DNA of 64,000 nt from the NCBI GenBank assembly GCA_902611415.1, contig CACLZM010000001.1, positions 62,001 through 126,000 on the forward strand, read 5' to 3'. The DNA comes from an uncultured Alphaproteobacteria bacterium (GTDB lineage: Bacteria > Pseudomonadota > Alphaproteobacteria > HIMB59). The translations under genes and the position numbers were made by a program. This document shows positions 32,247-38,904 of the stretch, one piece after another; the stretch's first letter is position 1, and the number at the start of each line of letters is the position of its first letter. The notes beneath the pieces were generated by a model. It was given only the letters and a program-made list of their open reading frames with translations, did not search any database and was not told the DNA's origin.

Positions 32247-34664
32247 ATGGAAAATCAAATCATTGGACCTATTTTACCTCTAAGGGACTTAGTTGTTTAT
32301 CCCTCTATAACCTCACCTTTGTTTGTTGGCCGAGCTAAATCTATTGATGCAATCAATTTTGCTATGAATAACAACAATAAGATTATTTATTTATTTACGC
32401 AAAAAGAACCAACAACTGATGATCCCCAAGTTAATGATGTTTATTCTTATGGTGTAAAATCAAAAATTATCCAGTTTCTTAAGTTGCCTGATAATACATA
32501 TAAAGTTCTTACTGAAGGTTTAGAAATCGTAAAAATAAAGTCTGCTGTTAAGGCAAGTAATAACTTCCTTACAGCTAAAATTGAACCAGTAGTAATTAAC
32601 AAAAAAAATTCAGTTGAATTAAAAGCTTCTTTAAGAGTTTTAAAAAATGAATTTCAAAATTATATACAAAATATAGGAAATAATAATGACATCCTTGAAG
32701 GACTTTTAAATATTGAAGATCCATATCAGTTCATTGATAATATTTATTACAACTTAAACATCGGAATTGAAGATAAACAAAAAAATTTAGAAATTATTGA
32801 TATTAATAAAAAAATTCAAAACTTACTTAATTTCTTTTCAAAAGAACTTAACTTTTCCGCACTTGAGAAAAAAATTAAAAATAGGGTAAAAAGACAAATG
32901 GAAAAAACCCAAAGAGAGTACTACTTAAATGAACAAATGAAAGCCATACAGAAAGAACTTGGTGATGGTGAAGATGGCTCTAACGAATATTCTGAAATAG
33001 AGAAAAAAATAAATGAGGTAAAACTATCAAAAGAGGCAAAAGAAAAAGCTTTAAATGAATTTAAAAAATTAAAATCTATGAGTCCAATGTCTGCAGAAGC
33101 ATCAGTAATTCGGAATTACCTAGAATGGATATTAGATATACCATGGGAAAAATTCTCAAAAGAAGTCATCGATATAAAAGGTTCTGAAAAAATATTAAAT
33201 GACGACCACTATGGTCTCGAAAAAGTAAAAGAGAGAATACTTGAATTTTTAGCAGTCAAAAAAAGATCAAAGAAAGCATCTGGTACAATACTATGTTTTG
33301 TAGGACCTCCTGGTGTTGGTAAGACTTCATTAGGTAAATCTATAGCTAGAGCTACTGGCAGAGAATTTGCAAAGATTTCTCTTGGTGGAATTAGGGATGA
33401 GGCTGAAATTAGAGGCCACAGAAGAACTTATATTGGCTCAATGCCTGGTCGATTTATTCAGGCTATGAAGAAAACCAAAACATCTAATCCCATTATTTTA
33501 TTAGATGAAATTGACAAAGTGGGTAGTGACTGGAGAGGAGATCCATCCTCTGCATTATTAGAAGTTTTAGATCCTGAGCAAAATAATCAATTTAATGATC
33601 ATTATCTTGAGGTTGATTATGACTTATCAAATGTAATGTTTATATGCACAGGTAATACTTACAACATACCTGGTCCTCTTCTTGATAGATTAGAGGTCAT
33701 TGAAGTATCTGGTTATACAGAAAAAGAAAAAGTTGAAATTGCAAAAAAATATTTAATACCAAGAAAAATGAATAAAAATATTTTAAAAAATAATGAATTT
33801 AAGCTTGATAAGGCATCTATTACAAAAATAGTAAGACACTATACTAGGGAGTCAGGTGTCAGAGGGCTTGAAAAAGTTTTTGATAAGTTATTTAGAAAAC
33901 TTGTTTTCCGATTAGAAAAAAATAAATCAAGGTCAAAAAAACCATTTGTTTTTGATGATAAAGCTATAAAAAATTTTTTAGGACCGGAAAAATTCAAGGA
34001 TAGTGTTTTAGAAAAGAAAAATTTAGTGGGCATTACCAATGGGCTTGCATGGACTCAGGTTGGCGGAGATATCTTAAATATTGAAGTTAATTTATCTTCA
34101 GGTAAGGGAATGATTAATGCAACAGGTAAACTTGGTGACGTGATGAAAGAGTCTATTACTGCTGCTTTAGGTTACATTAAATCTAATTCCGTTGAGTTCG
34201 GAGTAAATCCAAAGGTTTTCGATAAAATAGACATTCATTTACATGTACCTGAAGGAGCTATACCTAAAGATGGTCCAAGTGCTGGAATTACAATATTTAC
34301 CTCATTAATTTCATCTCTAACTGATATTAAAATTAAAAGAGACATTGCAATGACTGGGGAAATTACATTAAAAGGAAGAGTTCTTCCAATTGGGGGATTA
34401 AAAGAGAAATTATTGGCTGCGATAAGGTACGGTATTAAAACTGTTATAATCCCAAAAGAAAATGAAAAGGACTTAGTTGAAATACAAAAAGACATTCAAA
34501 ACAAGTTGATAATTAAGAAAGTCGAGTTTGCAAAAGAGGTATTGGACTTAGCTCTCGATGGAAAAATTAGTAAAATCAACAAAAAATTGGACTGGAGACA
34601 CCTAGTTACAGAGTCTATGAAGCCAAAAAACCAGCAAAATCAGGAAAAAACATTCGTCAACTAG
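32247..34664 (+). CDS. lon: Lon protease
   Basis: GPPGVGKTSLGKSIA, DGPSAGITIFTSLIS, ~805 aa. Confidence 0.97.
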   Translation: MENQIIGPILPLRDLVVYPSITSPLFVGRAKSIDAINFAMNNNNKIIYLFTQKEPTTDDPQVNDVYSYGVKSKIIQFLKLPDNTYKVLTEGLEIVKIKSAVKASNNFLTAKIEPVVINKKNSVELKASLRVLKNEFQNYIQNIGNNNDILEGLLNIEDPYQFIDNIYYNLNIGIEDKQKNLEIIDINKKIQNLLNFFSKELNFSALEKKIKNRVKRQMEKTQREYYLNEQMKAIQKELGDGEDGSNEYSEIEKKINEVKLSKEAKEKALNEFKKLKSMSPMSAEASVIRNYLEWILDIPWEKFSKEVIDIKGSEKILNDDHYGLEKVKERILEFLAVKKRSKKASGTILCFVGPPGVGKTSLGKSIARATGREFAKISLGGIRDEAEIRGHRRTYIGSMPGRFIQAMKKTKTSNPIILLDEIDKVGSDWRGDPSSALLEVLDPEQNNQFNDHYLEVDYDLSNVMFICTGNTYNIPGPLLDRLEVIEVSGYTEKEKVEIAKKYLIPRKMNKNILKNNEFKLDKASITKIVRHYTRESGVRGLEKVFDKLFRKLVFRLEKNKSRSKKPFVFDDKAIKNFLGPEKFKDSVLEKKNLVGITNGLAWTQVGGDILNIEVNLSSGKGMINATGKLGDVMKESITAALGYIKSNSVEFGVNPKVFDKIDIHLHVPEGAIPKDGPSAGITIFTSLISSLTDIKIKRDIAMTGEITLKGRVLPIGGLKEKLLAAIRYGIKTVIIPKENEKDLVEIQKDIQNKLIIKKVEFAKEVLDLALDGKISKINKKLDWRHLVTESMKPKNQQNQEKTFVN

Positions 34665-34734
34665 TATATTGTTGTTGATTTTCTTACCTTTTTCTTACTA
34701 CAATTAACTAATAGAATCACTAAGGAGGTTCGGT

Positions 34735-35123: not shown

Positions 35124-35201
35124 GGGGGTGTAGTTCAGTTTGGTTAGAACGCCTGCCTGTCACGCAGGAGGTCGCGGGTTCGAGTCCCGTCGCTCCCGCC
35201 A
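35124..35201 (+). tRNA. tRNA-Asp (GTC)
   Basis: GGGGGTG...CGCTCCC acceptor, anticodon loop CTGTCAC, discriminator G, CCA encoded; 3' end duplicated at 37830. Confidence 0.95.
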
Positions 35202-35202
35202 C
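35157..35202 (+). repeat. 46-bp direct repeat, copy 1 (attL-like; 3' half of tRNA-Asp)
   Basis: CTGTCACGCAGGAGGTCGCGGGTTCGAGTCCCGTCGCTCCCGCCAC identical to 37830..37875. Confidence 0.97.
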
Positions 35203-35316
35203 ATTAAGATAATCTTGGGTTATATATTTCCTAACTTTTTCAATACTTATCTGTTCAACAAAAATTAATTGAATCAATAAACCATGTCGTCTAATTCCAT
35301 AAAATTTCTTTCTAGT

Positions 35317-35336
35317 GGTGAACATATGGTGAGCAA
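35317..35336 (+). repeat. Putative integrase arm-type site pair, left
   Basis: GGTGAACATATGGTGAGCAA; two GGTGARCA units at 11-bp spacing; matches 37750..37769 except 2 positions. Confidence 0.55.
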
Positions 35337-35365
35337 AACCCCCCATGTACTTTTAGACAATAATA

Positions 35366-35530
35366 ATGGAAGTGATTTCAATGCAGAACAGATTTCCCAA
35401 TCCCATACCCTATAGCTTTGGGAAATGGGAAAGGCCAAAGAAGGTTATCTGTATTGCTTCAGAAATTAGAAAGTCACTTGAAGAGAGTGATCAAAAAGAA
35501 CTACATAAACTATTTTGGAAGAGAGCATAA
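35366..35530 (+). CDS. Small protein of the tRNA-Asp element (54 aa)
   Basis: MEVISMQNRFPNPIPYSFGKWERPKKVICIASEIRKSLEESDQKELHKLFWKRA; stop TAA directly abuts the next ATG (gcataaATGg). Not in ORF track. Confidence 0.55.
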   Translation: MEVISMQNRFPNPIPYSFGKWERPKKVICIASEIRKSLEESDQKELHKLFWKRA

Positions 35531-35716
35531 ATGGATCGTTACTTATCGGACTATGAAAAACTTCTTCATGAATACGAAAGGATTGAGTCAAAACTTAATA
35601 GCCTTTTTATTCAGACTGATCTATCAGAGTCAGCTAGAAAGAAGTTAGAAATAAGTTTGAAGAGAAGATTAAAAACACTACTACCTGAACTAAGAAAAAA
35701 AGAATTAGAAGTTTAA
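35531..35716 (+). CDS. Small charged, probably helical protein of the tRNA-Asp element (61 aa)
   Basis: MDRYLSDYEKLLHEYERIESKLNSLFIQTDLSESARKKLEISLKRRLKTLLPELRKKELEV; translationally abutting the 54-aa ORF. Confidence 0.55.
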   Translation: MDRYLSDYEKLLHEYERIESKLNSLFIQTDLSESARKKLEISLKRRLKTLLPELRKKELEV

Positions 35717-35754
35717 TATCGTTTCTAGTTCATTCGTGTCGTTACTTAAATTCT

Positions 35755-35792
35755 TCCAAATTTGATGAATTTAATGCGAAATTAATTGAAAT
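35755..35792 (+). repeat. 38-bp near-identical direct repeat, copy 1 (flanks hydrolase gene)
   Basis: TCCAAATTTGATGAATTTAATGCGAAATTAATTGAAAT; one mismatch to 37279..37316. Confidence 0.95.
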
Positions 35793-35803
35793 TGATTCAA
35801 TTT

Positions 35804-37231
35804 TTACATTAAGTATTCTTCAAGCAAAGATATTGTTTTTTTTGCAGAATTAATAGCCGCTTCATTGTTTCTTCCCTCTACGACCCCCCAATGCTCACAT
35901 TCTTTTTTATAATCTTTGTAATGCTTATCAGCAGAAACATCCCAAGTATCGTAATTATCTAAATGAATTACTTTATCTTCCATTCGCCACGTTCTTTTTC
36001 CATCCGCAGCAAGCCAGTATTTGCAATTTTTAGTTACTCTAAACCATTGATTTGAAAATTCTGCCTCATCCCAATTGCTCCATCCATCAAAGTTATGATG
36101 GGCGTTAGGAAAAATATCTATAGTTGCATTACCACCAAAATCGTTAAAGTTTTTTGCCATATCTTTACAAAATAAGGCAGGAGTAGTCTCATCCTTTTCA
36201 CCTGTTAAAAAATGAATTTTATTTTTAGTTACACCCTGTTTATCTAAATATCTACAATATGGATAAACTCCTATTCTTAATGCAAAATCATTTAAATTTT
36301 CATCATCAATTATTGGCTTTCTAATCATATCAAGACCAGTGTAAACTGCAGATGAACCACCCCAACTAAAACCCATTACCGCAATTTTTTCAGGATCTAT
36401 TTTGGGATGAGATTGCATGTGCTTTAAACCATAGAGAGCGTCAGCTGCTCCCATCCATGGTGTTAGTTTACTGCTGTTGCCTTGGATAATCATATTGTAA
36501 ATACTGAGGCCTCGTGGAAGACAGCTATCAATCTCTAATGTAGCAACACCTGCTTTTTTTATATCCTGACCTAAAGTAAAATTTCTTTGCCCAAAGTCAC
36601 AGGCAGAATTCATAATTAAAATCATTAAAGGATATTTTTCTTTTTGCTCTTGAGGGTAAGTTAAAAAACCCTCAATCGTATATTTTTGATCATTTTCAAC
36701 ACCATCTATAAAATCAATAGGAATTCTGGGAGTAAATGCTTCAAATTTAACATTCTCTGCTCGATAGAGCAGAGCATCGCAATTATTCCATTCATCAGTG
36801 ACCTCAATATGATTATTGCTTGACATTTTCCCAAACCACTTCCTGGTATTATCCTTATCATCAACAGGCTCTTTGCTTACAATTTCGAAAGAATTCTCAT
36901 TAACCTTAAATGATTTTATTTTGACTCTTCCTCCAAAAGATGGCCAAAGCCATTTTTCTTTTTTTATAATAACTTTTTTGGGATCTTTCTTATCTTTTTT
37001 GATAACTAGATCAATTACACCTTCAATAATTCCATTGCCTAACTCATAGCGTCCATTCCATTCGCAATTAGCTAAACCTCTCCATCTCCCAATGATATCT
37101 GAAGATATTTCCTCAGATTTTAATACTTTATCTTCCGTTTTTTCATTGCCATCAACTTGTTGCCCATCCTTAAAAGTAAGTCCCCAACTCAAACTAGGGA
37201 TTAATAGTAATAGGGTGATAATTATTCTCAT
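35804..37231 (-). CDS. Secreted dienelactone hydrolase-like alpha/beta hydrolase
   Basis: Signal peptide MRIIITLLLLIPSLSWG; GFSWGGSSA nucleophile, GEKDETTPA acid, NAHHNFDG histidine. Confidence 0.82.
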   Translation of the reverse strand: MRIIITLLLLIPSLSWGLTFKDGQQVDGNEKTEDKVLKSEEISSDIIGRWRGLANCEWNGRYELGNGIIEGVIDLVIKKDKKDPKKVIIKKEKWLWPSFGGRVKIKSFKVNENSFEIVSKEPVDDKDNTRKWFGKMSSNNHIEVTDEWNNCDALLYRAENVKFEAFTPRIPIDFIDGVENDQKYTIEGFLTYPQEQKEKYPLMILIMNSACDFGQRNFTLGQDIKKAGVATLEIDSCLPRGLSIYNMIIQGNSSKLTPWMGAADALYGLKHMQSHPKIDPEKIAVMGFSWGGSSAVYTGLDMIRKPIIDDENLNDFALRIGVYPYCRYLDKQGVTKNKIHFLTGEKDETTPALFCKDMAKNFNDFGGNATIDIFPNAHHNFDGWSNWDEAEFSNQWFRVTKNCKYWLAADGKRTWRMEDKVIHLDNYDTWDVSADKHYKDYKKECEHWGVVEGRNNEAAINSAKKTISLLEEYLM

Positions 37232-37278
37232 AAGATATATTATTGTTCATAGTGGATTTAAAATCAAAACGAAATTTG

Positions 37279-37316
37279 TCCAAATTTGATGAATTTAATG
37301 CGAAATTAATCGAAAT
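37279..37316 (+). repeat. 38-bp near-identical direct repeat, copy 2
   Basis: TCCAAATTTGATGAATTTAATGCGAAATTAATCGAAAT; one mismatch to 35755..35792. Confidence 0.95.
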
Positions 37317-37749
37317 ACTTCTCTATACAAATAAAATGCTCTCTCTAAGAGGGGGTTATTAGGGTTATTTTGTTAATGTTTTCAATAGTTGATACGGAGT
37401 TATTAGTAGTTTTTCCGTATTTCTCGCACAGAACTCTCGTAGGTAATGTAACCTTTTGTTACCCTGAAATGTTTACTTTTGTTAACTTTGAAAGCTACGC
37501 ATAGGGGGGGTTCAAAATTAGTAAAGGTACACTTTAATACATGTTTAACACGCATTTTTGAATCGTAGGGTACGAAGTAAATGCTACCCCCGTAACAAGT
37601 TAACATGAGGCTAACACCATGCTCTATGATTCCTAAAACAGCGTTTCGCGGTGCATGATCCATGGTCAAATATCAATGGATATTCTGTTCACCAATATTG
37701 GAATATTTGAATCATTATTTCGTAAAATGTGGTAGTGTTTCACTAGAAA

Positions 37750-37769
37750 GGTGAACACTTGGTGAGCAA
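37750..37769 (+). repeat. Putative integrase arm-type site pair, right
   Basis: GGTGAACACTTGGTGAGCAA; an inverted TGTTCACC copy also lies at 37686..37693. Confidence 0.55.
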
Positions 37770-38904
37770 CTCTTATGGGTGTTTAAAAAGTCTTGGTAAT
37801 ATAGGCTTAAAACGACCTAGGATTCCTTACTGTCACGCAGGAGGTCGCGGGTTCGAGTCCCGTCGCTCCCGCCACTTCAAAACATTCATTTCGTTTTTTT
37901 TAATTTTTTCTTTATTTTCATGTTCTTCTTATAAATCAAAAGATGTTCATGGATTAAAGACACTTGGTATGAGCTTTGGCGATACAACAATTAAAGGTTT
38001 TAAAATTGACCCAGGTTGGAATGCTAGTTCAAAAGAAGAAATAAAAAAATATCAAAGAAAAAAGAACTTGGTACTTTTTCAACTTCAGAAAGAGAAAACA
38101 AGATACGGAGATACTGCTTTTTTTATCCAAGCACCAGGAGATGAGTGTTATAACAAATTAAAAGATTGCTCACGACCAAATGGTGAAAAACAAAAAAGAG
38201 TAGAGGTAGGAACCAATTATGGTTTTCAAGGAGAAATATGGTTATCTTATTCTTTTTTAATCACAGAAAATTACGAACTAAATAATGATAGTGCTATGAA
38301 TAAATCAATATTGCAATTTCATAGCACAGAGAGTTTTTTTGGTCCTATGTTTATGCTTCAAATAGACAAGAAGAAAGGTTTGCTTTGGAGACACGAATCT
38401 AGTGAGGGAGTTATTATTATTGAAGGAGGGAATGATGATTGCTCACCTGGTGCTGGAGGTCCAGAGGATACTGATAAAAGAATTTTTTGTGAAGCTAGGC
38501 ATGATTGGTACCAAATAATATCTGCAAAAAATTTACAAAGAAATAAATGGTATGATTTAGTCTTCAATATTAATTTTAATAAAAAGGATATTTCCAAAGC
38601 TTTTCATAAAATTTGGTTAAATGGAAAGTTATTGCATTACAGAAAAAACCAAACACTCTGGAAAGATCAAAAAAGTGTAAAAAACTCAGATAATTTGGCA
38701 AATTTTAAATTTGGTATTTATGGTTCAAGATTAGATGGCTCTTATCAATCTATTTATGCTGATGAAATCCACTTTGGAACTGAATGTAAGGACCTTTTAA
38801 TAGAAAATATTGGCTATTATTGTAGTAATTTAAAAAAACAAACAATAAATGAATCATTTCCTATCTTTACAGAAGATAGAGTTGCTTATTATACTAGAGG
38901 ATAA
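37759..38904 (+). CDS. Secreted lipoprotein, polysaccharide-lyase-like (heparin lyase I/PF14099-type fold suspected); annotated 5' end chimeric with att repeat
   Basis: SFFLIFSLFSC lipobox; RNKWYDLVFNINFN..KIWLNGKLLHYRK..FKFGIYGSRLDGSYQSIYADEIHFG. First ~38 codons lie in element end/tRNA fragment, so true start is uncertain. Confidence 0.55.
   Translation: MVSNSYGCLKSLGNIGLKRPRIPYCHAGGRGFESRRSRHFKTFISFFLIFSLFSCSSYKSKDVHGLKTLGMSFGDTTIKGFKIDPGWNASSKEEIKKYQRKKNLVLFQLQKEKTRYGDTAFFIQAPGDECYNKLKDCSRPNGEKQKRVEVGTNYGFQGEIWLSYSFLITENYELNNDSAMNKSILQFHSTESFFGPMFMLQIDKKKGLLWRHESSEGVIIIEGGNDDCSPGAGGPEDTDKRIFCEARHDWYQIISAKNLQRNKWYDLVFNINFNKKDISKAFHKIWLNGKLLHYRKNQTLWKDQKSVKNSDNLANFKFGIYGSRLDGSYQSIYADEIHFGTECKDLLIENIGYYCSNLKKQTINESFPIFTEDRVAYYTRG
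37830..37875 (+). repeat. 46-bp direct repeat, copy 2 (attR-like partial tRNA-Asp)
   Basis: Exact copy of the 3' part of tRNA-Asp without D-arm or 5' acceptor strand. Confidence 0.97.

Follow-up and report, generated by a model that had tools for sequence, protein, structure and literature searches.

A secreted-hydrolase gene of HIMB59 bacteria as a probable cassette, bracketed by a 38-bp repeat and nested in a tRNA-Asp element

Comparative analysis of a 64,000-nucleotide stretch of DNA from an uncultured alphaproteobacterium of the HIMB59 lineage (hereafter the window) suggests that a secreted hydrolase gene and its 5' leader probably form a cassette nested in a satellite-like element at tRNA-Asp, exchanged by RecA-type recombination through a 38-bp direct repeat (X). 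The same element was found without the hydrolase, and the hydrolase was found in a different element, which points to movement of the gene as a separate cassette within a larger mobile carrier. The window's genome (1.24 Mb in 30 contigs, 81% complete) was compared with 51 other genomes of its genus (52 in all) and with an order-wide set of 162 genomes from two families, one consisting of this single genus of 52 genomes and the other of genomes that are generally larger; the compared single-cell genomes are incomplete. This composition fits what PMC10734472 describes for HIMB59, the most likely order, although one figure legend places AG-892-D10 (G047) alongside a Pelagibacter genome (PMC12416821). 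The features of the locus are collected in Table 1.

Table 1. Features of the tRNA-Asp locus in the window (positions are those of the window).
Feature	Position	Strand	Basis or remark
tRNA-Asp (gtc), integration site	35124..35201	+	ARAGORN
attL = tRNA-Asp 3' end	about 35157-35202	+	duplicate at 37830-37875
Carrier as in window, 2.7 kb, integrase-less deletion derivative of tRNA-Asp element	35202..37875	.	larger intact form in G023/G004
Integrase gene 5' remnant	35300..35397	+	alignment to L037 and L038
Left arm of slot (3' of helicase in intact elements)	35398..35747	+	matches L037 5942-6343, L038 5869-6271
61-aa ORF in left arm	35531-35716	.	function unassigned; no PHROG match
Repeat X, left copy	35755..35792 (45 bp: 35748-35792)	+	38 bp
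Secreted alpha/beta hydrolase (dienelactone-hydrolase family), gene of the putative cassette	35804..37231	-	ORF; 475 aa; PF01738 (DLH) E 4.5e-8
Signal-peptide coding segment, chimeric	37181..37231	-	first ~27-36 nt MRLII type, remainder MKTLL hydrolase type
5' leader	37232..37278	-	same as 5' of G042 lyase gene and of G035 signal-peptide fragment
Repeat X, right copy	37279..37316 (45 bp: 37272-37316)	+	38 bp
Right arm, slot to attR	37317..37829	.	93-99% match in G023, G004, G016, G025
attR, copy of tRNA-Asp 3' end	37830..37875	+	46-bp repeat with 35157-35202

An earlier note on this DNA had described a 38-bp repeat pair that flanks the hydrolase ORF alone and is unrelated to the tRNA attachment site. 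This description holds: both copies have the same orientation with a T/C as their sole difference, the hydrolase ORF is the sole gene between them, and the repeat of the tRNA-Asp 3' end, itself real, is unrelated to X in sequence. The pair can be lengthened to 45 bp with 42/45 identical positions (93%), and zero such pairs are expected by chance, as judged from dinucleotide shuffles of the window. The window itself has no further copy at up to 3 mismatches. The left X lies 11 bp from the stop codon of the hydrolase, and the right X 47 bp from its ATG. At up to 3 mismatches, the 38-mer was present in 8 of the 52 genomes of the genus, and a search of the order with its 31-bp core returned the same 8 out of 162, reversed-sequence controls giving zero matches and an exact scan of viral contigs none. 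Thus, X does occur independently of the window, and its absence from the other 154 genomes of the order speaks against a general promoter or terminator family.

Relatives of the hydrolase at 97-100% identity were found in six other genomes of the genus, and none in viral contigs. The gene lies between two X copies in the window's genome (G000), G016, G047 and G025, and the recovery of this structure in four separate genomes indicates that it is not a chimera of assembly or amplification. In G023 and G004, the same tRNA-Asp carrier contains a single X and no hydrolase, the left arm (window 35392-35792) overlapping the right arm (from 37272 on) in that one copy; these carriers with an empty slot are the cargo-less version that the earlier note had predicted. 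In G042, the left X and the hydrolase are followed by a second secreted gene, encoding a polysaccharide lyase (PF14099); the right end is deleted from within X, and the left junction is common with that of the window-type copies. Those elements that are intact and bear an integrase all have the empty slot, and each element with a filled slot is a deletion derivative; all filled copies, which share one deletion junction, may go back to a single insertion. The repeat was also found in another cargo setting, as had been anticipated. G035 has an empty tRNA-Asp site, and its hydrolase gene sits in another element, whose borders are exact copies of the 3' end of tRNA-Arg. There, the stop codon of the hydrolase is followed by X, then by a leader and the beginning of an MRLII-type signal peptide, so that X links the hydrolase with the 5' leader of a different secreted gene. 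Together with the empty slot, this arrangement supports the proposal of a second, cassette-like event inside the tRNA carrier. As for the suggested swapping of single cargo genes, one alternative content was found, the lyase and hydrolase pair of G042; repeated swapping of many different genes at X would go beyond this evidence.

The junctions of X were compared in the direction of the gene. The empty junction of G023 and G004 reads gaagt-X-agaattt and that of G035 gaatta-X-caaattt, the right copy of the window reads gaagt-X-caaattt and the left copy gaatca-X-agaattt. Judged by these flanks, the two window copies are reciprocal hybrids of the empty and G035 junctions, as would be expected from one crossover within X. 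Moreover, the order X-leader-gene-X of the window and the order gene-X-leader of G035 are circular permutations of each other, opened at X in the window and at signal-peptide DNA in G035, implying a circular or tandem intermediate. A circular cassette would be the simplest link between both orders; alternatively, tandem duplication and then a double crossover would yield the same junctions without a circle.

A second exchange is recorded in the signal-peptide sequence. The leader of the window gene and its first ~27-36 coding nucleotides are of the MRLII type seen in the G042 lyase and the G035 fragment, and the remainder of the gene corresponds to the MKTLL hydrolase of G035, G019 and G042, the switch from MRLII to MKTLL falling within the conserved stretch TATTAATCCCTAGTTTGAGTTGGGGA. 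The signal peptide of the window gene is therefore chimeric, pointing to an exchange inside this sequence, as could follow if the lyase body were lost from a lyase and hydrolase pair like that of G042. RecA-type recombination is favored because X lacks a significant recombinase-site architecture and is confined to this slot and cassette, and because the signal-peptide DNA provides a second homology. The cassette would then enter or leave the slot by one reciprocal crossover between X copies, passing through a circular or tandemly duplicated form, with ordinary RecA-type recombination joining it through short stretches of homology, namely X and the conserved signal-peptide DNA; the carrier would move by integration at tRNA-Asp, and the window derivative would rely in trans on the integrase of a sibling element. 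Either a gain in the window lineage or a loss in G023 and G004 is compatible with this crossover mechanism, the weak point of a gain being that it gives no account of why X was common to the empty slot and to the G035 context beforehand.

That point is answered if the filled element is ancestral, recombination between X copies having removed the cassette from G023 and G004, and the excised circle having given rise to the copy in G035. The empty slot and G035 would share X as both are products, and G035 does look like a circle opened at signal-peptide DNA. In addition, the left X of G000 and G016 has the right-X base at one site where G047, G025 and G042 differ, a pattern as after exchange between the copies. 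However, the intact integrase-bearing elements are empty while all filled ones are deletion derivatives, and an ancestral filled state gives no origin for the two X copies, so that we regard this history as possible but rather less than probable. It is unlikely that X is a true site for a tyrosine recombinase (the element integrase or XerC/D), the cassette being a unit of the dif-module or secondary-att kind. The exact reciprocal junctions and the related integrases encoded in both carrier types would suit such a site, as would a 9-bp inverted repeat inside X that matches at 8/9 positions around a 6-bp spacer, but an equal inverted repeat was reached by 100 of 2000 shuffles and is not significant, X brackets this cassette only and in one genus, and X does not resemble the tRNA att sites of the two elements. 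A regulatory role, with X a promoter or terminator standing by chance on both sides of the gene, is very improbable: one copy of X does precede the leader and the other closely follows a stop codon, but the region has promoter-like and terminator-like matches at about the level of shuffled sequence, none lying wholly within X, and the 154 of 162 genomes that lack it include some that abound in genes with this signal peptide. Insertion by a transposon, with X as target-site duplication, would leave the gene between direct repeats of which the empty allele has one copy, but deserves almost no credence, given that neither a transposase nor terminal inverted repeats were seen at the window locus, that X lies between hydrolase and leader in G035, which is not expected of a target duplication, and that 38 bp is far above the usual length of such duplications. 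Exchange by RecA-type recombination through X is the likeliest reading.

The carrier shows the marks of an integrative element at a tRNA site: border repeats of the tRNA 3' end, an unoccupied site in G044, G026 and G035, where tRNA-Asp is joined straight to the sequence that follows attR, and, in G023 and G004, a tyrosine integrase (PF13356 and PF00589). In these two genomes, the intact element encodes, in this order, the integrase, an uncharacterized 315-aa protein, a Toprim primase and an AAA_25 helicase, followed by the slot and the right arm to attR. Of the integrase gene, the window retains roughly 100 bp at the 5' end; at ~35392-35397 the sequence passes from this remnant directly to the DNA just after the helicase stop codon, indicating a deletion derivative; G016, G047, G025 and G042 align without a break across the same junction. 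The right arm was not found elsewhere in the genus beyond the four genomes listed in Table 1. The element helicase was found in G023 and G004, plus one weak match, and nowhere else in the order, with no homologue in the window's own genome and no relatives in viral contigs; phage records gave only distant matches to helicase and integrase.

Further variation was observed around this site. The left ends (35203-35330 compared with L033, L034, L035, L037 and L038) fall into two alleles, one in G000, G023 and G004 and another in G016, G047 and G025, the latter being also carried by a tandem copy in G004, which suggests recombination between element ends. This second, partial element at tRNA-Asp in G004 (L038 6786-10466) encodes a 1107-aa protein with Mrr_cat_2, ResIII and helicase domains that resembles part of type IIG/I restriction enzymes (PADLOC). 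In G020, the interval between tRNA-Asp and nuoA is filled by a single 5973-aa ORF (L046 1356-19277). A polysaccharide lyase gene (PF14099; window 37969-38904) is chromosomal, lying directly beyond attR between tRNA-Asp and nuoA; several relatives are without it, their tRNA lying about 60-80 bp from the match to the nuoA region.

The G025 copy bears on how far the derivative has travelled. Over the stretch 34301-34700, just upstream of the HU gene, G025 is 76-88% identical to the window, whereas its element is mostly 92-100% identical, and past attR it continues with the DNA of its own clade (G007, G018). Diverged flanks around a more similar element suggest that the integrase-less form crossed between species. 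On the simplest reading of these alignments, it would have reached the right tRNA site with the help of a sibling integrase; homologous replacement of an older resident element is possible as well.

The hydrolase was found in elements at two different tRNA sites, tRNA-Asp and tRNA-Arg. The integrase of the G035 element is 46% identical to that of the tRNA-Asp element, and in G019 the hydrolase adjoins the same tRNA-Arg without an integrase and with most of X missing, its gene body matching the G035 one at 99.85% and the G042 one at 100%. The family of tRNA-Arg(tct) elements, of 8-10 kb with exact 45-bp borders, is represented by L167 (G039), L168 (G013), L169 (G023) and L170 (G035) and encodes a 424-aa integrase and 81-aa HTH_17-like, 281-aa DUF1376-like and 102-aa proteins; no relatives of the integrase were found in viral contigs. 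Each of these four elements carries different cargo genes headed by a signal-peptide module. Since G023 has both an empty-slot tRNA-Asp element and a module-carrying tRNA-Arg element, donor and target types can meet in one cell.

This module, in the form ATGAAAACCCTCTTAGCCCTATTGTTATTAATCCCTAGTTTGAGTTGGGG or close variants, heads 15 groups of secreted ORFs among the loci read, whose bodies have no detectable similarity, and matches to the module region were found in 36 of the 52 genomes. A 51-nt version, MKTLLALLLLIPSLSWG, was observed at window 37181-37231 and in L002, L036, L040, L119-L134 and L167-L170. Mean identity was 80% within the module, part of which is built in, as the gene set was chosen by the signal-peptide protein pattern; the 50 nt upstream averaged 29% and the 39 nt downstream 33%. 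Identical residues in the module used the same codon in 76% of cases, whereas 38% was predicted from codon usage, an excess that favors shared DNA ancestry over convergence. No exact matches to the module were found in viral contigs, and none in phage records. The signal-peptide DNA is thus a possible second, perhaps general, crossover point for assembling secreted proteins. More tentatively, tRNA-borne elements might trade secreted-protein genes as circular cassettes through the 38-bp slot and the 51-nt module; if so, a new protein body would be placed under an existing export signal and leader. Nothing comparable was found in the literature on bacterial signal-peptide shuffling or on cassette exchange at short homologies.

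Several known systems resemble parts of this arrangement. PICI/PICMI, P4-like satellites and tycheposons/VEIMEs are likewise small, with a tyrosine integrase, a fixed tRNA or other site and att repeats, and they also have replication genes and a slot of accessory-gene turnover, which in PICMI sits between prim and fis (PMC10803314, PMC11389934, PMC10872708). The tRNA-Asp element differs in that no packaging or capsid function and no match in viral collections was identified, and in its secreted-enzyme cargo and a slot marked by its own 38-bp repeat. Compared with the PICMI set (integrase, AlpA, DUF3987/DUF5906 primase and Fis), the integrase is present, the primase is of the Toprim type, and neither AlpA nor Fis was found among the four main ORFs of the intact element. 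No description of this element was found in the literature, the papers on marine satellites covering other families. In Acinetobacter plasmids, dif modules (pdif) are likewise single genes with short bracketing repeats that are shuffled between carriers, but those repeats are XerC/D sites standing beside many genes (PMC13141974, PMC12907356), whereas X brackets one cassette only, being found at this slot and at the G035 cassette. Set against the two 11-bp arms and 6-bp spacer of the XerC/D site in a dif module, X has its 8/9 inverted repeat with a spacer of the same 6 bp, an arrangement that 100 of 2000 shuffles also reach. Integron gene cassettes are single-gene units whose arrangement implies a circular form. 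The hydrolase cassette is similar in both respects, but no integron integrase was seen at the slot, no integrase gene adjoins the cassette in the window, and each unit has one X, which is of an unrelated kind. Within HIMB59 itself, flexible genomic islands show differing gene content at one position in the same (inferred) order, and homologous recombination has been proposed for their exchange (PMC10734472). The phosphate islands described there are reported without tRNA or IS hallmarks, in a paper that makes no mention of integrases (PMC10734472); the locus studied here, in contrast, belongs to a tRNA element that has att sites and, in relatives, encodes an integrase.

How streamlined ocean bacteria gain and lose single genes in their small genomes has so far been poorly resolved. 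Here, empty, filled and permuted states of one gene in uncultured relatives, with junctions precise to the base, make such a route directly testable. A diverged species also has, at the proper tRNA site, the integrase-less derivative with its enzyme gene, and the shared signal-peptide DNA may be a general crossover point for building secreted proteins.
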